DNA of 64,000 nucleotides from Gemmatimonadota bacterium (GTDB lineage Bacteria; Gemmatimonadota; Gemmatimonadetes; Gemmatimonadales; Gemmatimonadaceae), in NCBI GenBank assembly GCA_016871915.1, contig VHBP01000002.1, forward strand, positions 1-64,000. Direction: 5' to 3'. Below are positions 5,578 to 61,995 of the stretch, in pieces; the first letter of the stretch is position 1, and every line of letters starts with the position of its first letter. A program made the position numbers and the translations under genes. The notes beneath the pieces were generated by a model. That model worked only from the letters and a program-made list of their open reading frames with translations. It searched no databases and was not told the origin of the DNA.

Positions 5578-6423
5578 TCAGGCGGGAGGTGGGACGACGG
5601 GAGTGGGGGAGTGCAGGGGGTCGTGCAGCCGCTCACGCAGCCAAGGATGCATCACCGGATTCCCAGCGAGGATACTGCTCGGCTGCGTCGGATCCAGCGG
5701 TTCGCCATCGACGGTGGAGACGATCCCGCCCGCTTCGGTGACTAGGAGCATCCCGGCGGCGAAGTCCCATGGCGAGAGCCTCGTCTCCCAGTAGGCCTCG
5801 ACGCGGCCGGCAGCGACACTTGCGAGGTCGAGGCTCGCGGCGCCAGCGCGTCGCACATCGGGGACCCCCGAGATCACGCGGGCCAGCTGGAGCTGGTAGA
5901 GTGGGAGGTCGTGCGGGTCCTTGGCGGGAAACCCTGAGGCGATCAGGGCGCGCGGCGGGTCGGTGATGGTGGAGACGCGGCAGGGGCGGCCATCCACCAA
6001 GGCCCCGGCGCCGATGGTCGCGGTGAAGCGCTCGTTCCGCGGCACCTGGAGGACCACTGCGGCCACCGGATGGCCGTCCTCGAGCACGCCGATCGAGACC
6101 GCGTACTCGGGGAATCCGTGCAGGAAGTTCGTGGTCCCATCTAGGGGGTCGATCACGACGCAGAGCCCCCGGCGGGCCTCGGCCCCGGCGCTCGATGCCG
6201 ACTCCTCGGCGAGGATGGTGACGCCGGGAAGGGCGGGGCGGAGGAGCGCGAGGATCGCCGCCTCGGTACGGAGGTCGACCTCGGAGACGAAGTCCCCCGG
6301 TCCCTTGGATTGCCAATCGATCGTCCCGAGGCGACCTGCCCCCTCACGGATGATCGCGGCCCCTGCCTCGGCGGCCCGTGTGATCAGGTCGAGGAGCGCC
6401 CCGCGCTCCTGTTGAATGCCCAT
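5578..6423 (-). CDS. Inositol monophosphatase family protein
   Basis: VIDPLDGTTNFLHGFPEYAVSIGV and WDFAAGMLLVTEAGG motifs; start chosen at MGIQQERG. Confidence 0.92.
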   Translation of the reverse strand: MGIQQERGALLDLITRAAEAGAAIIREGAGRLGTIDWQSKGPGDFVSEVDLRTEAAILALLRPALPGVTILAEESASSAGAEARRGLCVVIDPLDGTTNFLHGFPEYAVSIGVLEDGHPVAAVVLQVPRNERFTATIGAGALVDGRPCRVSTITDPPRALIASGFPAKDPHDLPLYQLQLARVISGVPDVRRAGAASLDLASVAAGRVEAYWETRLSPWDFAAGMLLVTEAGGIVSTVDGEPLDPTQPSSILAGNPVMHPWLRERLHDPLHSPTPVVPPPA

Positions 6424-6446
6424 TGGTCGTCCCGTACCTTCCGGTG

Positions 6447-7430
6447 ATGCCACGCATCTTCAGCGGGATCCAGCCCTCGGGCGAGCTCCACATCGGCAAC
6501 TACCTGGGAGCGGTCAAGAACTGGGTCGCGCTGCAGCACGAGCAGGAGTCCTTCTTCTGCATCGTAAACTATCACGCCATCACCGTCCCTTACACGCCCG
6601 ACGAGCTCCGCCGCCGGACCCGGGAGATGGCGATCTCCCTGCTGGCCTCCGGGCTCGACCCGGCCAAGGCGACGGTCTTCGTCCAGTCTGATGTCCCGGA
6701 GCACACCGAGCTCGCCTGGGTCTTCAACACCATCACCCCGTTGGGCGAGCTCGAGCGGCAAGTCCAATTCAAGGACAAGTCAAGCAAGCAGGAGCAGGTG
6801 ATGGCGGGGCTGCTGAACTATCCGGTGCTTCAGGCGGCGGACATCCTCCTGTATCGCGCCGACATCGTCCCCGTGGGAGAGGATCAGGTGCAGCACCTCG
6901 AGCTCTCGCGCGTCGTCGCGCGGAACTGGAATGCGCGCTTCTCGCCGACCGAGCCGTACTTCCCCGAGCCGCAGCCGCGCCTCACCCCGGCGCGTCGTAT
7001 CGTCGGGCTCGATGGGCAGGGGAAGATGTCGAAGTCGCTCGGCAACACGATCAGCCTCCTCGATCCGCCGACCGTCGTGTGGGACAAGCTGCGCCCCGCT
7101 GTCACCGACGAGGCACGCCTCCGAAAGACCGACCCGGGTGAGCCGGAACGGTGCAAGACGATCTACCAGCTGCACCGGGCCTTCTCTCCAGCGGCGGTGG
7201 TGGCCGAGGTGGAGACTAAGTGTCGCAGCGCGCAGTGGGGATGCATCGAGTGCAAGAAGGTCCTGCACGAGCATCTCACGGCGGAGTTGGCCCCGATCCA
7301 GGCGCGGGCGGCCGCACTCGCGGCCGAGCCCGAGCGGGTGGATGCGCTCCTTGCTGACGGGGCGCAGCGCGCGCGCGCCGTCGCGCGCGAGACGATGACC
7401 ACGGTGCGCGACCGGATGGGACTCGCATGA
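6447..7430 (+). CDS. trpS: Tryptophanyl-tRNA synthetase
   Basis: MPRIFSGIQPSGELHIGNYLGAVKNW and GQGKMSKSLGN; start at 6447 rather than ORF-track 6423. Confidence 0.96.
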   Translation: MPRIFSGIQPSGELHIGNYLGAVKNWVALQHEQESFFCIVNYHAITVPYTPDELRRRTREMAISLLASGLDPAKATVFVQSDVPEHTELAWVFNTITPLGELERQVQFKDKSSKQEQVMAGLLNYPVLQAADILLYRADIVPVGEDQVQHLELSRVVARNWNARFSPTEPYFPEPQPRLTPARRIVGLDGQGKMSKSLGNTISLLDPPTVVWDKLRPAVTDEARLRKTDPGEPERCKTIYQLHRAFSPAAVVAEVETKCRSAQWGCIECKKVLHEHLTAELAPIQARAAALAAEPERVDALLADGAQRARAVARETMTTVRDRMGLA

Positions 7431-20495: not shown

Positions 20496-21419
20496 GTGAG
20501 CCTCGCCTTCATCTCCCACGCTGATGTTGGGCGACACGACACCGGGTGGCATCACCCCGAGCATGTCGGTCGGATCCGCGCCATCACGAGCGCGCTGAAG
20601 TACCACCCCGAACTCTTCATGTCGCTCGAGCTCCTCGAGGGGCGCGCCGCGACCCCAGCAGAGCTCGCGCTCGCGCATGATCCGGCGTACGTGACGCGGG
20701 TGCGCACGCTCGCGGAGCAGGGCGGGGGACGGCTCGATGCCGACACCGTGGTGAGCGCGGGGAGTTGGGATGCGGGGACGGCGGGAGCGGGCTCGGTGCT
20801 CGAGGGGATGGCACGCGTGTTGGATGGCCGCTCGCGTCGCGCCTTCGCCGCGGTCAGGCCGCCGGGACATCATGCGTTGCGGGATCAGGGGATGGGATTC
20901 TGTCTCTTCGGGAACGTGGCGATCGCCGCGCAGGCCGCTCGACGGGCCGGGGTCGATCGCGTGTTGATCATCGATTGGGACGTGCATCATGGGAATGGGA
21001 CGCAGGCGTTGGTGGAGCATGATGCCGCAATCCGCTTCGTCTCGATGCACCAGTGGCCCTGGTATCCCGGGTCGGGGGCGGCGGAGGATCGCGGGCCGCA
21101 GGGTTCGGTGTGGAACGTGCCGATGGCGGCGGGGCTCGCGGCGGCGCGCTATCGTGAGGCGCTCCTCGGGGCGGTGGATGCGGCCACCGAGGGATGGCGC
21201 CCGGAGCTCGTCCTGATCTCCGCCGGCTTCGATTGTCTCGCGCGGGACCCGCTCGGCGGGTTCACCCTCGAGATCGACGATATCGCCGCGCTGACGCGTG
21301 AGGTGGTGACGCGGGCGGAGCGGTGGTGCGGGGGGCGGGTCGTGAGTGCGCTCGAGGGGGGCTATGCCCCGGAGCGGGTGGCGCAGGCGGTGGTCGCCCA
21401 CCTGACCGCGCTCCAGTAG
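20496..21419 (+). CDS. Histone deacetylase family (class II type) amidohydrolase
   Basis: AVRPPGHHALRDQGMGFCLFGNVAIAA, IIDWDVHHGNGTQ, ISAGFDCLARDPLGG. Confidence 0.92.
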   Translation: MSLAFISHADVGRHDTGWHHPEHVGRIRAITSALKYHPELFMSLELLEGRAATPAELALAHDPAYVTRVRTLAEQGGGRLDADTVVSAGSWDAGTAGAGSVLEGMARVLDGRSRRAFAAVRPPGHHALRDQGMGFCLFGNVAIAAQAARRAGVDRVLIIDWDVHHGNGTQALVEHDAAIRFVSMHQWPWYPGSGAAEDRGPQGSVWNVPMAAGLAAARYREALLGAVDAATEGWRPELVLISAGFDCLARDPLGGFTLEIDDIAALTREVVTRAERWCGGRVVSALEGGYAPERVAQAVVAHLTALQ

Positions 21420-21428
21420 CTTCGAGGC

Positions 21429-30035: not shown

Positions 30036-30707
30036 TCAGCGATCGCCACCGAAGCGGTAGCGAAGCCCGAGGCGGGTGACGAACTGTCGTTGGGAGCGAC
30101 TCTGGCCAGCGGCGAGTCCCTCCGTGGGTCCCCACAGGGTCGCGTAGTCCTGCACGAGGGTCAATGAGGCCTTGGTGCCCAGAGAGAAGCCGATCCCGTA
30201 GCCGACGACGAGCGTGAATGCATTGCGCGCCGCGCGTTCGGCTGCGGTCAACCCTGCCGCGTCGTGATCGGCGGCCCACTGCGAGAGGCCCGCACCGAGT
30301 TCGACGATCTGGTGTGGCCCCATCTGCTCGAGCGTGCGGAAGGTGGCCAGGAGTTGGCGTAATTGGATGGTGCCGCTGGACCCGCTCGGCGTGAGCTCGC
30401 CGCGTCGGATGATGGGGACCTGCGCCGTGGAGGCGGCGAGACCGAGCGCTCCGCTGCGAAGCCCCACATCGACCATCACCCGATGCTGTGCCGCCTCCCC
30501 GAGGGACCAGATGGTCCTGGACTGCCCATCGACCCGTCCTTCCGTCTGGAGGAAGCCCGTGCTGATGGAGAGCGTGATCGGTCGACGCGCGGTCGAGGGG
30601 GATGGGACCTTGATGAGCTGCGCCTCACCGACCGAGGCGAGGCTGGCGCAGAGGAAGGGAAGGAGTGCGAGCTGACGCCGGTCGCGCCGGGTGCGAGGGA
30701 TGGCCAT
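30036..30707 (-). CDS. Hypothetical secreted / outer-membrane beta-barrel-like protein
   Basis: Signal-like N-terminus ending ...VGEAQ, alternating beta pattern, C-term LGLRYRFGGDR. Confidence 0.6.
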   Translation of the reverse strand: MAIPRTRRDRRQLALLPFLCASLASVGEAQLIKVPSPSTARRPITLSISTGFLQTEGRVDGQSRTIWSLGEAAQHRVMVDVGLRSGALGLAASTAQVPIIRRGELTPSGSSGTIQLRQLLATFRTLEQMGPHQIVELGAGLSQWAADHDAAGLTAAERAARNAFTLVVGYGIGFSLGTKASLTLVQDYATLWGPTEGLAAGQSRSQRQFVTRLGLRYRFGGDR

Positions 30708-30713
30708 GCTCGG

Positions 30714-30720
30714 TAACTTA
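30714..30720. promoter_or_regulatory. Symmetric bidirectional -10 (TAACTTA / TAAGTTA)
   Basis: 17-bp gap between the divergent ATGs at 30707(-) and 30725(+) contains TAACTT on + and TAAGTT on -. Confidence 0.55.
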
Positions 30721-30724
30721 CGGG

Positions 30725-31636
30725 ATGCTCGATCCTCGCGTCACGGAGCGCCGGAATCCCCGCAGCGCCGACATCGACCTCGCCTCGCCGCTGGAGATCG
30801 TCGACCTGATGGTGGCCGAGGACCGCGGGGTGGATGACGCGGTCGCGACGCAGCGGGAGCCGATCGCGCGGGCGATCGCGCTGGTGGAGGGCGCGTTCCG
30901 CGAGGGGCATCGGCTCTTCTACGTCGGGGCGGGGACGAGTGGGCGACTCGGCGTACTCGATGCCTCCGAGTGTCCGCCGACCTTCGGGAGCGATCCCGCG
31001 ATGGTGCAGGGGATCATCGCCGGGGGCCCCGCCGCGCTGCTGCGGGCGCAAGAGGGGGCGGAGGATCGCCCAGATGGCGCGCGCACCAATCTCGAGGCGG
31101 CCGGGGTCGCCCGAGGGGATGTCGTCGTCGGGATCGCGGCGAGTGGGACGACGCCCTACGTGCGCGCGGCGCTCGAATATGCGGCCTCGGTCGGGGCGAA
31201 GACAGTGATCCTCGCCTGCTCGCCGCCGGCGACCGCGCTCCTCGATCTGGTCGATATCGCGATCCTCCCCATCACCGGTCCCGAGGTGGTCACCGGCTCG
31301 ACCCGACTCAAGGCGGGGACCGCGACCAAGCTGGTGCTCAACATGCTCACCACCGGCGCGATGGTGCGGATCGGCAAGACGTACGGCAATCTCATGGTCG
31401 ACCTGCAGGCGACCAATGAGAAGCTGCGCGATCGATCGGAGCGTCTGATGATGATCACCTGTGGGCTCTCGCGTGAGGCGGCGCGGCAGGCCCTCGCCGC
31501 CGCTGATGGGCGCGTGAAGGTGGCGATCACCATGCAGAAGCTCGGCCTCTCGTCGGACGCAGCGCGCGCACGATTGGCTGAGGCGGGTGGGGTGATCCGG
31601 CGCGTCGTGCCGGATGCGCCGCCGCCGGTCGAATAG
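30725..31636 (+). CDS. murQ: N-acetylmuramic acid 6-phosphate etherase
   Basis: VTERRNPRSADIDLASPLEIVDLM; YVGAGTSGRLGVLDASECPPTFG; GPEVVTGSTRLKAGTATKLVLNMLTTGAMVRIGKTYGNLMVD. Confidence 0.96.
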   Translation: MLDPRVTERRNPRSADIDLASPLEIVDLMVAEDRGVDDAVATQREPIARAIALVEGAFREGHRLFYVGAGTSGRLGVLDASECPPTFGSDPAMVQGIIAGGPAALLRAQEGAEDRPDGARTNLEAAGVARGDVVVGIAASGTTPYVRAALEYAASVGAKTVILACSPPATALLDLVDIAILPITGPEVVTGSTRLKAGTATKLVLNMLTTGAMVRIGKTYGNLMVDLQATNEKLRDRSERLMMITCGLSREAARQALAAADGRVKVAITMQKLGLSSDAARARLAEAGGVIRRVVPDAPPPVE

Positions 31637-42553: not shown

Positions 42554-42588
42554 TTGACTCATCATGATGAGGTGTTTATACTCATGTT
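42554..42588 (+). promoter_or_regulatory. vapBC promoter/operator: TTGACT-N17-TATACT-N6-ATG with 14-bp palindrome CTCATCATGATGAG (42558-42571)
   Basis: Read directly from sequence; palindrome overlaps the end of the -35 and lies in the spacer. Confidence 0.8.
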
Positions 42589-46379: not shown

Positions 46380-47567
46380 TCAGCGACGGGAGGCGGGTTC
46401 CAGGCGCATGAGCGCGGGGCTCCCCCCCTTTCTCGTCTCGAAGACGAGATAGAGGAACCCATCGGGGCCCTGCCGCACGTCGCGGATGCGGCCGCGGTCC
46501 TGCACCAGGTTCTCCACCTCCTTGACCGTCGTCCCATCGAGCGCGACGCGCGTGAGACGCTCGCCCACCAAGCCGCCGACGAAGAGCTGCCCCCGCCACT
46601 GCGGGAACTTGTCTCCCGTGTAGATGGCGAGCCCGGAGATGCCGATGGAGGGGACCCAGACGTTGATCGGCGATTCCATCCCGGCGCGCGCCGTCCCGAC
46701 ATGGATCGCGCTGCCGGTGCGGTAGTTCACGCCGAAGCCGATGACGGGCCAGCCGTAGTTCTTACCGGCCTGCACGAGGTTGAGCTCATCGCCGCCCTGC
46801 GGGCCATGCTCATCGGCCCAGAGCTGGTTCGTGGTGGGATGCACCGCGAGTCCCTGCACGTTGCGATGCCCATAGCTCCAGATCTGCGGCAGGGCACCCG
46901 GGGTGTTCAGGAAGGGATTGTCCGCCGGGATGCGGCCGTCGTCATGGAGTCGGACGATCTTCCCGTGGTGCGTCCCGAGATTTTGCGCCGGATGCTTGAG
47001 GAGCGAGTCGATCGGGCCCGCTGGCATCACCTGTCGGTCGCCGAGCGAGATGAAGAGATAGCCATCGCGATCGAAGGCGAGACGGGAGCCGTAGTGGCCC
47101 ATGCCGCGTGACCACTTCTGCGCCTCGAAGATCTCCGTCACCTGCGTGAGGCGATCGTTCTCGAAGCGTGCGCGGATCACCGCCGTCGTGCTCTGGTTCC
47201 CTTCGGCGTTGGGCTTGGAGTAGCTCAGATAGACGAAGCGATTCTCGGCGAACTTGGGATGGGCGACGACATCGAGCAGGCCGCCCTGCCCACCGACGCG
47301 GATCGGCGGGAGCCCCGGCACGGTGTCGGGGAGCAGCTTCCCCTTCCGGATGACGCGGAGTTGGCCCATACGCTGCGTGACGAGCAGATCGCCACCCGGG
47401 AGGAAGGCGACCGACCAGGGACTCGCCAGCCCATCGGCGACGAGGGTGAGCCGGACGTCATGATGCTGGGTCCGAAGGGTCTCCTGAGCCGTGGTGGTGG
47501 CACAGGGGAGGAGAAGGGCCAGGAGGCCGAGGCGGAGGGCGCGAGGGGCGCAGGTGGGCATGGACAT
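46380..47567 (-). CDS. PQQ-dependent sugar dehydrogenase (glucose/sorbosone dehydrogenase family), secreted
   Basis: LASPWSVAFLPGGDLLVTQR; GQGGLLDVVAHPKFAENRFVYLSYS; YGHRNVQGLAVHPTTNQLWADEHGPQGGDELNLV. Confidence 0.9.
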   Translation of the reverse strand: MSMPTCAPRALRLGLLALLLPCATTTAQETLRTQHHDVRLTLVADGLASPWSVAFLPGGDLLVTQRMGQLRVIRKGKLLPDTVPGLPPIRVGGQGGLLDVVAHPKFAENRFVYLSYSKPNAEGNQSTTAVIRARFENDRLTQVTEIFEAQKWSRGMGHYGSRLAFDRDGYLFISLGDRQVMPAGPIDSLLKHPAQNLGTHHGKIVRLHDDGRIPADNPFLNTPGALPQIWSYGHRNVQGLAVHPTTNQLWADEHGPQGGDELNLVQAGKNYGWPVIGFGVNYRTGSAIHVGTARAGMESPINVWVPSIGISGLAIYTGDKFPQWRGQLFVGGLVGERLTRVALDGTTVKEVENLVQDRGRIRDVRQGPDGFLYLVFETRKGGSPALMRLEPASRR

Positions 47568-47573
47568 ACCCGA

Positions 47574-47583
47574 AAGGTACATT
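47574..47583. promoter_or_regulatory. Overlapping divergent -10s (TACCTT on -, TACATT on +)
   Basis: Each is exactly 6 nt from the divergent ATGs at 47567(-) and 47590(+). Confidence 0.55.
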
Positions 47584-47589
47584 CGACCC

Positions 47590-48105
47590 ATGTACAAGAG
47601 CGTCGACGAGATGCTGCACGACGGATGGGGAGGCGCCATCGTCTGTGTCGGGGCGGGGGTCATCATCTTCACCTTCGTCCGCTTGCTCGGAGGGGTTCGG
47701 GTGGGGGCCATCCCGATGGCCGTCGGGCTCTTCGCCGCCGGTGCCATGGGGCGCGTGATCCAGCGGGCGGTCGTGCAGGGGGCGGGGAAGGCGGCGGAGG
47801 CGGTCGTGAACCCCTCCGGGAAGACCACGCCCTACGTCCCCACCTTCTCGCACATTGAGACCTTGGTGATCCGCGGGGACCTCGCGGGCGCCGAGCAGGA
47901 GAGGCTCGAGGAGGAGATGCGAGCCCCGGAACATCCGCAGGTGGTCATGCGGATCGCCGAGTTCTATCTGCGCACCAAGGGTGACCGGGTCACGGCCCTT
48001 TCGTATTACGAGCGGCTCGTCGCGCTGCCCACGGTGGGAGCCGAGCTCACGGGGTACGCGCGCCGGAAGATCGAGGAACTGCGGTCCGTGGCCGATCGGG
48101 GGTGA
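47590..48105 (+). CDS. Hypothetical membrane protein with helical (TPR-like) C-terminal part
   Basis: TM AIVCVGAGVIIFTFVRLL...; ETLVIRGDLAGAEQERLEEEMRAPEHPQVVMRIAEFYLRTKGDRVTALSYYERLV. Confidence 0.7.
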   Translation: MYKSVDEMLHDGWGGAIVCVGAGVIIFTFVRLLGGVRVGAIPMAVGLFAAGAMGRVIQRAVVQGAGKAAEAVVNPSGKTTPYVPTFSHIETLVIRGDLAGAEQERLEEEMRAPEHPQVVMRIAEFYLRTKGDRVTALSYYERLVALPTVGAELTGYARRKIEELRSVADRG

Positions 48106-57197: not shown

Positions 57198-57206
57198 ACC
57201 GGAAAG

Positions 57207-58139
57207 CTACCGACTCCCGACGCGCGACATCACCGAGTCGACGATGGCCTGTAGGATCTGCGGCCGGCTACCGAGCATGTGCGGGCCGTCGATCCAGATC
57301 TGCTCCTTCGGGGCCTGTGCCGCGTCCCAGAGCGCTTGCACGGCGGCCGGTGGGATCCGCTCGTCCTGTGTGGCGTTGAGCATCACGACGGGACGTGGGG
57401 CGACCCGGTCGATCCAATGCTCGGGCGCGAAGCGAGGACCCGAGACGAGCAGCGTCCCGAGGGCGGCGAGGGGGACGCGGAACAACGCGTTCGGGACATC
57501 ACGACGAAGGCCGGACTCGATCATCAGGTACGGACGCCCGCCCCCGTGCGCGATCCAGAGACGGGTGACGCGGGAATCCCGCGCGGCGGCGATCGTCGCG
57601 AAGGGGGCGCCAAAGCTCGCCCCCATCAGCTCCATCCGCGCGGGGTCCACCTCAGGGTCGCGTCGCAGGTAGTCGAGCACGAGGGTGACCGCGGGCGGGG
57701 TGGCGTAGAAGGCGCGCCGGATCGCGGGGACCTGGGCGAGGACGGCGAGTCCCTTGGCCTTGAGGTCGCCATCGAACGGATAGTCGATCGCGGCGACGAT
57801 GGTGCCGCGCGTATCGGCGAGGAGTTTCGCTGCGCCGCGACCGCGCTCGGCGCCACCGAGGATGAGGAAGGCGGGGCGGGGCGAGGTGGTGGAGGCGATC
57901 GGTCGGCGCACCGCGAGGGTGACGATGAGCCCCGTATCGTTGGTGAGTCGGATGACCGATTCCCGATGGCCGTCGCCCTCCACGGATTCGAGCGTATCGA
58001 CCTGAGTCAGGGCGCCAGTGTGGGCGTCGAAGACCGGTTCGGGATCCCGCAGGAGCCAGAGGACGAGCGCACCGATCGCCGCGACCTCGAGCAGGGCGAT
58101 CCCGAGTAGTGTGTGGTGAGCGAGAGCACCGCGTCGCAT
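57207..58139 (-). CDS. Alpha/beta hydrolase-like protein
   Basis: ELMGASFGAPFATIAA nucleophile elbow-like motif (G-A-S-F-G); VMLNATQDERIPPAAV; N-terminal TM. Confidence 0.75.
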   Translation of the reverse strand: MRRGALAHHTLLGIALLEVAAIGALVLWLLRDPEPVFDAHTGALTQVDTLESVEGDGHRESVIRLTNDTGLIVTLAVRRPIASTTSPRPAFLILGGAERGRGAAKLLADTRGTIVAAIDYPFDGDLKAKGLAVLAQVPAIRRAFYATPPAVTLVLDYLRRDPEVDPARMELMGASFGAPFATIAAARDSRVTRLWIAHGGGRPYLMIESGLRRDVPNALFRVPLAALGTLLVSGPRFAPEHWIDRVAPRPVVMLNATQDERIPPAAVQALWDAAQAPKEQIWIDGPHMLGSRPQILQAIVDSVMSRVGSR

Positions 58140-58186
58140 GGGGGAAGGTTAGCGCGTGGGGATGGGGGGTCGTATAGCTTTCCGGC

Positions 58187-59362
58187 GTGACTGCGACCGT
58201 ACTACCCCCCGAGGCGTCGCGGCGGATCCTCCCCGCGCTCGCCACCTCGACGGCCCCCGATGTCTGGGTCCATCGCTTCGACGACCACACCCACGGCTGG
58301 ACCCTCGCCGTGGCGACGCACGCCGCGCCGGGCTCTGGCAAGCTCTCCCTCGGCGGATTCCGTATCGCCCCGGATGAGCGCATGCGCTCCGAGGGGTTCA
58401 CCCCCGAGCGCGAGGCGATCGCCCTCGCGATGGGGATGGAGGAGAAGGTCCGCTGGTCGCGCCTGCTCGGAGTGGGTGGGCCGCTTGCCAAACGGGACCT
58501 CTCGCGGATCGTCGGCGGGAAGTGCGTGCTCGCGCCGACCCCAGATGCGCGAGTGGGACAGCCCAACGATCGGGCCCTCCTCGACTTCGCCATCGCGGGG
58601 TTCCAAGCGATCGAGCGCGAGTCAGGGATCTTCCTCGTGACGGGCCAGGACCTCGGACATGGGATGCTCCACGATGGGTCGAGCAGCTCGCTCGCCTATC
58701 TCAATGCGCGGTATCGTGGGAGCGTCGTCGCCGATACGTCGGGGCCCACCGCCGAGGGGAATGTGCAGGTCCTACTCGGGATGTTGCGCGCCGCCGAGGT
58801 GCCAGTCGCGCAGGCGACCGTCCTGCTAATCGGGTGTGGGAACATCGGGATACACATGGTGGAGCGGTTGCGTCCGATGGGGGTGACGTTGCTCGTCTGC
58901 GAGTCGCGCCCTGAGCGGCGGGTGGAGCTCGCCGCGCTGGGGATCCGTGCGGTGGGGCCAGAGGGGAAGCTCGCGCTGTTGGCCGAGCCAGTCGATGCGG
59001 TGGTGGTGAATGGCGCGGGGGGCTCGCTCGATGCGGCGACGATCGCGGCCTGTGTGGCGAACCCGCGCCTGCAGGTGATCTGCGGGAGTGAGAACCTCGC
59101 GATGCCCGATCCCGCCGGAACCGACGCGCTCCGACGTGGGCGGAAGTCCTCGTGCCCGACCGAACTCGGCGGGATGATGGGGTATCTCACCGCGGTCGAG
59201 GAGTATCTCGCCAAGGCGGATGGGATGCCGTTCGACGTGGCGACGGTGATGCACGCGGCCGCGGCGCTGGAGCCCGCGGCGTACGAGGCGACGGCGCGTC
59301 AGCGCGCGGGCGGGTTCGCGGAGACGTTCGAGCAGGTGGTGGAGGGGATGACGCGCGGCTGA
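58187..59362 (+). CDS. Divergent Glu/Leu/Phe/Val dehydrogenase family protein
   Basis: LSLGGFRIAPDERM, VGGKCVLAPTPD, VTGQDLGHG, LLIGCGNIGIHMVERL, ICGSENLAMPDPAG; GTG start. Confidence 0.75.
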   Translation: MTATVLPPEASRRILPALATSTAPDVWVHRFDDHTHGWTLAVATHAAPGSGKLSLGGFRIAPDERMRSEGFTPEREAIALAMGMEEKVRWSRLLGVGGPLAKRDLSRIVGGKCVLAPTPDARVGQPNDRALLDFAIAGFQAIERESGIFLVTGQDLGHGMLHDGSSSSLAYLNARYRGSVVADTSGPTAEGNVQVLLGMLRAAEVPVAQATVLLIGCGNIGIHMVERLRPMGVTLLVCESRPERRVELAALGIRAVGPEGKLALLAEPVDAVVVNGAGGSLDAATIAACVANPRLQVICGSENLAMPDPAGTDALRRGRKSSCPTELGGMMGYLTAVEEYLAKADGMPFDVATVMHAAAALEPAAYEATARQRAGGFAETFEQVVEGMTRG

Positions 59363-61975: not shown

Positions 61976-61995
61976 GGCTCTATAGTTTATTACAT

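Follow-up and report, generated by a model that had tools for sequence, protein, structure and literature searches.

The trpS locus and similar sites in the window

The window, by which we mean the whole stretch of 64,000 nucleotides that was analyzed, is contig 2 of a Gemmatimonadota MAG (2.07 Mb in 120 contigs, 98.75% complete, ~68% GC). Near its left end, trpS (6447..7430, plus strand; PF00579, E 9.8e-72) begins at ATG 6447 (MPRIFSGIQPSG). It lies back to back with an inositol monophosphatase gene (5578..6423, minus strand; PF00459, E 4.9e-60), whose start is 23 bp from that of trpS. The trpS sequence shares 95% identity with its counterpart in another Gemmatimonadetes MAG; Gemmatimonadaceae MAGs come next. 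Between the two starts is a putative -10 element, TACCTT (6435..6440, plus strand), which ends 6 nt before the trpS ATG. As an earlier note on this DNA had pointed out, TTGAAT (6412..6417, plus strand) lies 17 nt upstream of it as a candidate -35. Because the start-to-start gap is only 23 bp, this -35 falls inside the monophosphatase gene. A search of the window for Rfam families and tRNAs found none.

The arrangement upstream of trpS is conserved. Among 53 Gemmatimonadota trpS loci, with the window included, TAnnTT is found at -12 in 43, and TAnnnT occurs within -15 to -11 in 51. When similar upstream regions were dropped, 30 of 32 loci retained the -10, and the bases that flank it vary among relatives. 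Of 30 non-redundant orthologues, 20 have a TTG at this same distance, 17 nt upstream of the -10. Furthermore, in three loci (L046, L050, and L056) the trpS start codon is a few codons upstream, and the -10 is displaced along with it. The conserved N terminus of TrpS, MxRIFSGIQPSG, starts at the equivalent of ATG 6447 in nearly all relatives, so that a leader would have no space, and our expectation-maximization (EM) start model predicts that trpS is leaderless (P = 0.99). A symmetric -10 dyad shared with the monophosphatase gene was considered and rejected, since the minus strand reads TACGGG, in which the sixth base is not T, and in some relatives GGAG takes its place.

The earlier note had presented trpS as the clearest case of a window-wide architecture in which a TAnnTT-like hexamer precedes the start codon by six bases. 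All eight of the sites that it quoted are present, and the gap between hexamer and start codon is exactly 6 nt in each. They include TATACT upstream of vapB (42577..42582, plus strand; ATG 42589), TAGCTT upstream of corA (21417..21422, plus strand; ATG 21429), and TAGCTT upstream of tgt (57204..57209, minus strand; GTG 57197; P = 1.00). They also include a divergent pair separated by 47 bp, with TAACCT (58146..58151, minus strand) ahead of ATG 58139 and TAGCTT (58175..58180, plus strand) ahead of GTG 58187. A further candidate is TAGTTT (61983..61988, plus strand), 7 nt before ATG 61996 (P = 0.87 in the EM model). Some of the gene labels did not survive comparison with Pfam: there was no match for the "TPR-like" gene at 47590 or for the "alpha/beta hydrolase" gene at 58139 on the minus strand, and the "GLFV dehydrogenase" at 58187 has only a sub-threshold NAD-binding match. 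"Window-wide" was likewise an overstatement. Confidently leaderless genes, as called in silico, number about 10 in the window and make up ~14% of genes genome-wide, and they are outnumbered by genes with a Shine-Dalgarno (SD) sequence. The anti-SD is intact: a 16S gene of the same genome has GGATCACCTCCTT at its 3' end.

At corA and tgt, the TAG of the hexamer also serves the upstream gene as its stop codon. Where same-strand neighbors have a TAA or TAG stop 11 to 13 nt before the next start, the TT is correctly placed in 5 of 13 cases, compared with 3 of 40 for stops elsewhere (Fisher p 0.016). This excess is suggestive only.

Genome-wide enrichment, consensus, and phylogenetic spread

We counted the element across the whole genome in an annotation-free manner. 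TANNTT-N6-ATG (TANNTTNNNNNNATG) had 82 matches, while the reversed pattern had 13 (Poisson p ~1e-37), which is an enrichment at exactly 6 nt before the start. In a scan of spacer lengths over 862 kb of the genome, there was a peak at 6, with 34 matches for ATG and 14 for GTG, compared to ~3-4 at long spacers (10-20). No such peak was found in the same 862 kb for TTnnTA or for CTG and ACG codons. When gene starts were called from coding potential only, and thus blind to the motif, TAnnTT was found at -14 to -11 in 38 of 278 operon-first genes, where permuted patterns had a median of 2; for TAnnnT, the corresponding values were 49 of 278 and 10. A hexamer in which three or four bases are fixed turns up often, and a chance juxtaposition in a genome poor in T and A might be suspected. 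Yet, the permuted, reversed, and shuffled controls were several-fold to ~20-fold lower, and this explanation, which we consider negligible, is already refuted by the whole-genome count together with the conservation at trpS.

The EM start model, in which genes were assigned to leaderless, SD, or no-signal classes, gave a similar picture. The probability of being leaderless exceeded 0.8 in 91 of 652 genes (~14%), a fraction that is blurred by mis-calls because start codons were called in silico, compared to 12 to 19 genes (~2.5%) with shuffled upstream regions. Among first genes, 58 of 293 were called leaderless at this threshold, compared to 5 to 14 with shuffled upstream regions. Spacers of 6 nt and 7 nt accounted for 47% and 23%, respectively. 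Given that starts are predicted in silico, an argument can be made that the -10 is real but that the mRNAs carry short leaders, with the true start codons lying downstream. We regard this as improbable. There is no room for a leader at trpS, and the fact that a spacer of 6 peaks for ATG and GTG, but not for CTG or ACG, indicates that it is the start codon that the motif follows. The motif-blind caller, for its part, misplaced the starts of trpS, corA, and the 47567 gene.

Alternatively, TAnnTT-N6 could be a translational or codon-context signal, that is, a non-SD motif for ribosome binding. The motif does occupy the position of an SD, mostly where an SD is missing. However, it favors operon-first genes; with motif-blind starts, operon-internal genes mostly have SD cores at the position where operon-first genes have TAnnTT. 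Nor would a ribosome-binding motif account for the -35 TTG 17 nt upstream in trpS orthologues, or for the match in both -10 consensus and position to leaderless promoters that have been tested in Deinococcus (PMC12340547). We therefore view this alternative as very improbable. The notion of widespread leaderless initiation, which the earlier note had put forward, is strongly supported as a prediction by the genome-wide enrichment at a fixed position, by the contrast of operon-first with operon-internal genes, and by conservation across species.

The consensus of the element is TAkCTTYC (k, G or T; Y, C or T). At position five of the hexamer, 72 to 83% of sites have a T, and the base directly after the hexamer is A in only 1 of 82 sites (1% versus 20% in the background). 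The earlier note had also proposed that the -10 is extended downstream by TCCG or TTCCG. An extension does exist as a preference for YC after TAnnTT (51 of 82 sites versus a background of 25%, p 1e-12), but not as CCG, which directly follows the hexamer in 6 of 82 sites and is not enriched (p 0.12); TCCG is slightly enriched, with 4 of 82. Among the same 82 sites, G precedes the ATG in 51% and A does so in only 2%, compared to background values of 31% and 10%. A strong genome-wide -35 was also considered and rejected: although trpS has one, the sites taken genome-wide have a weak -35.

The signal has a narrow phylogenetic distribution. In four genomes of the genus, forward and control counts were 82/13, 92/33, 75/8, and 86/23. 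The ratio of forward to control fell to ~1-5 in other genera of the family and ~1-3 in most remaining members of the order, and did not exceed ~1 in most of the class's other families or in most genomes from outside the class. In outgroup loci (Myxococcota, Deltaproteobacteria, and others) run through the same pipeline, no TAnnTT peak was found. By these sequence counts, the genus has a strong leaderless signal and the family a weaker one, while other families of the class have none.

Putative symmetric -10 dyads between divergent genes

TAnnTT is half of a near-palindrome, so a single symmetric -10 (TAAnTTA or AAnnTAnnTT) could serve two outward-facing leaderless genes. Two loci in the window have this layout. 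The genes at 47567 and 47590, which the earlier note listed separately, form one divergent pair with a single symmetric -10. On the minus side is a glucose/sorbosone dehydrogenase gene (46380..47567; PF07995, E 1.4e-127), which is predicted to be leaderless, and on the plus side is an open reading frame (47590..48105) for a membrane-like protein of 171 amino acids with no Pfam match. The 22-bp intergenic region (47568-47589) consists of ACCCGA, the dyad AAGGTACATT (47574..47583), and CGACCC. The dyad reads as TAnnTT on both strands with the central TA in common, giving TACATT toward 47590 and TACCTT toward 47567, each 6 nt from its start. A dyad, AATGTACCTT, also precedes the orthologous dehydrogenase gene in another genome (G028, L152).

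At the second locus, a conserved gene of 223 amino acids with a hydrophobic N terminus and no Pfam match (30036..30707, minus strand) is divergent from a SIS-domain (MurNAc-6-P etherase-like) gene (30725..31636, plus strand; PF22645/PF13580; P = 0.98), and both are predicted to be leaderless. Their 17-bp intergenic region (30708-30724) is GCTCGG-TAACTTA-CGGG, in which the palindrome TAACTTA (30714..30720) contains two hexamers that overlap by five bases. The gene pair is kept in 17 of 17 genomes of the genus. In 15 of these, which are all of those that could be anchored, CAY-N6-TAAnTTA lies beside the minus gene with invariant spacing, and these 15 are orthologues rather than independent examples. 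TAAGTTA is also present in the remaining two (L143 and L145), where the minus start was not anchored. The SIS gene start is 4 to 6 nt past the heptamer in 7 of the 17 genomes and ~45 to 120 nt away in the other 10, where the gene begins with GTG behind a leader that is rich in pyrimidines and has no SD. Thus, TAAnTTA (L134-L150) stays fixed relative to the minus gene while the SIS gene start shifts. These 10 genomes lend the short-leader explanation some support at this locus. The seventh base of the heptamer, A, belongs to the element on the opposite strand. Ordinary sites almost never have it (1 of 82), so its conservation, although among orthologues that are not independent, suggests that both strands are under selection.

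We asked how often such dyads occur elsewhere. The 22-bp pattern, CATN6AANNTANNTTN6ATG, was found in 10 of 298 Gemmatimonadota genomes, compared to 1 for the reversed pattern. It was concentrated in the genus of the window, with 5 of 12 genomes versus 5 of 286 elsewhere (Fisher p 1e-5). Long open reading frames flank the dyad on both sides in 7 of the 10 genomes, namely, all five of the genus and two others, and the flanking genes include what we take, from their appearance, to be a leucyl-tRNA synthetase and an aminotransferase. The other three matches (L128-L130) have no convincing pairs of flanking open reading frames. In another family of the order, a leucyl-tRNA synthetase-like gene and a divergent membrane protein gene share a 22-bp symmetric, putatively leaderless dyad (L122, G109:C1:262076-262103). 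The 17-bp pattern with TAAnTTA and fixed 5/5 spacing had three further matches in the genus, at two gene pairs, and one for the reversed control. Counts of dyads are small, amounting to ~7 distinct gene pairs in 17 genomes. The gaps between divergent genes are 17, 18, 21, 22, and then at least 34 bp, which hints, in small numbers, at an excess of gaps of exactly 17 or 22 bp.

Divergent genes with a perfect palindrome between them are a classic setting for operators. For the dyads, TAAnTTA could be the binding site of a regulator rather than two fused -10s, given that it has the classic operator layout and is retained even where the SIS gene starts far off. Nevertheless, the palindrome is exactly two TAnnTT hexamers overlapping by five bases, its 6-nt distance to the minus start codon is constant in 15 genomes, and the layout recurs with unrelated flanks at other gene pairs. 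We consider the operator unlikely, although an operator and a double promoter at one dyad are not mutually exclusive. The reading that we lean toward is that, in some divergent pairs of the Gemmatimonadaceae, a lone symmetric -10 dyad makes up nearly the whole intergenic region, that both genes may be leaderless, and that the orientation of the polymerase may pick which mRNA is made; one side could be converted to leadered expression with the dyad kept.

A putative -10 variant adjoining the start codon

Taken together, the observation that prompted this analysis is confirmed and lies far above chance, and its interpretation is partly supported. Our preferred explanation, to which we assign a probability of roughly 0.9, is that a housekeeping-sigma -10 (TAkCTTYC) adjoins the start codon and gives rise to leaderless mRNAs, and that back-to-back leaderless genes may share one symmetric -10. 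With such a promoter, the +1 would coincide with the first nucleotide of the start codon. The element would drive about one-sixth to one-fifth of operon-first genes along with some operon-internal genes, for which an upstream TAG or TAA stop could supply the TA, while most other genes would be translated with an SD and the intact anti-SD. At the dyads, the symmetric -10 would constitute most of a 17- to 22-bp intergenic region, and the orientation of RNA polymerase would decide which leaderless mRNA is made. From sequence we infer the +1 at the start codon, the use of the housekeeping sigma factor, the translation of leaderless mRNAs, and the firing of dyads in both directions.

Actinobacteria and Deinococcus-Thermus are known to have leaderless genes preceded by a TAnnnT box at ~12 bp (PMC3160421), and -10-adjacent leaderless promoters have been tested experimentally in Deinococcus (PMC12340547). 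The element described here shares with this class a -10 situated ~6-7 nt before the start and enriched genome-wide, a preference for the first genes of transcription units that lack an SD, and conservation across orthologues, as seen for trpS and the SIS-gene pair. The likeness to Deinococcus-Thermus, where TANNNT is found ~6-7 bp before the open reading frame, extends to position, spacing, and -10-like sequence, as well as to a coexisting SD class and a high-GC genome (PMC12340547, PMC3160421). There are also differences. The fifth position is T in TAkCTTYC, whereas the commonest form in Deinococcus is TACACT, and the leaderless share is ~14% compared to ~30-46% in Deinococcus-Thermus. In the TA-led genes of Actinobacteria, the middle positions are uninformative (Zheng et al. 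2011, PMC3160421), whereas here the T at position five and the YC after the hexamer are informative. The -7 element of Bacteroidetes is TAnnTTTG; its TAnnTT core is alike, but TG follows there and YC here (51 of 82), so that the TTTG ending is not found.

The dyads have a counterpart in the bidirectional promoters of Escherichia coli (Warman/Grainger, PMC12825309), which also share a symmetric -10. There, 18 bp is the commonest distance between divergent start sites, and 10 and 23 bp are also common (Warman et al. 2026, PMC12825309). With the start codon as a proxy for the transcription start site, the two dyads of the window have distances of 18 bp (30707/30725) and 23 bp (47567/47590), so that overlapping -10s on both strands occur at two of the distances preferred in E. 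coli. Unlike in E. coli, both start sites would fall on start codons and both mRNAs would be leaderless, with the result that the promoter core would be nearly the entire intergenic region. To our knowledge, a layout in which leaderless genes share a symmetric -10 dyad is an undescribed variant.

In the papers that we searched, we found no account of leaderless initiation in Gemmatimonadota, although the domain-wide supplementary scan of Zhong 2025 may include the phylum. The main text of Zheng et al. (2011, PMC3160421) does not mention Gemmatimonas, and one leaderless genome there is "unclassified." Since -10-adjacent leaderless promoters are known from Actinobacteria and Deinococcus-Thermus, what seems new here is the phylum and its own -10 variant. 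Bacterial leaderless initiation has been documented mainly in those two groups. The finding has a practical side as well, in that gene finders that are blind to the motif misplace starts in such genomes, as happened for trpS, corA, and the 47567 gene. If the shared leaderless dyads are real, few promoters serving two genes could be smaller. More generally, a signal that is gained or lost within one phylum would offer a natural system for the switch between leaderless and SD-led expression, for which trpS and the SIS-gene locus provide aligned before-and-after examples.
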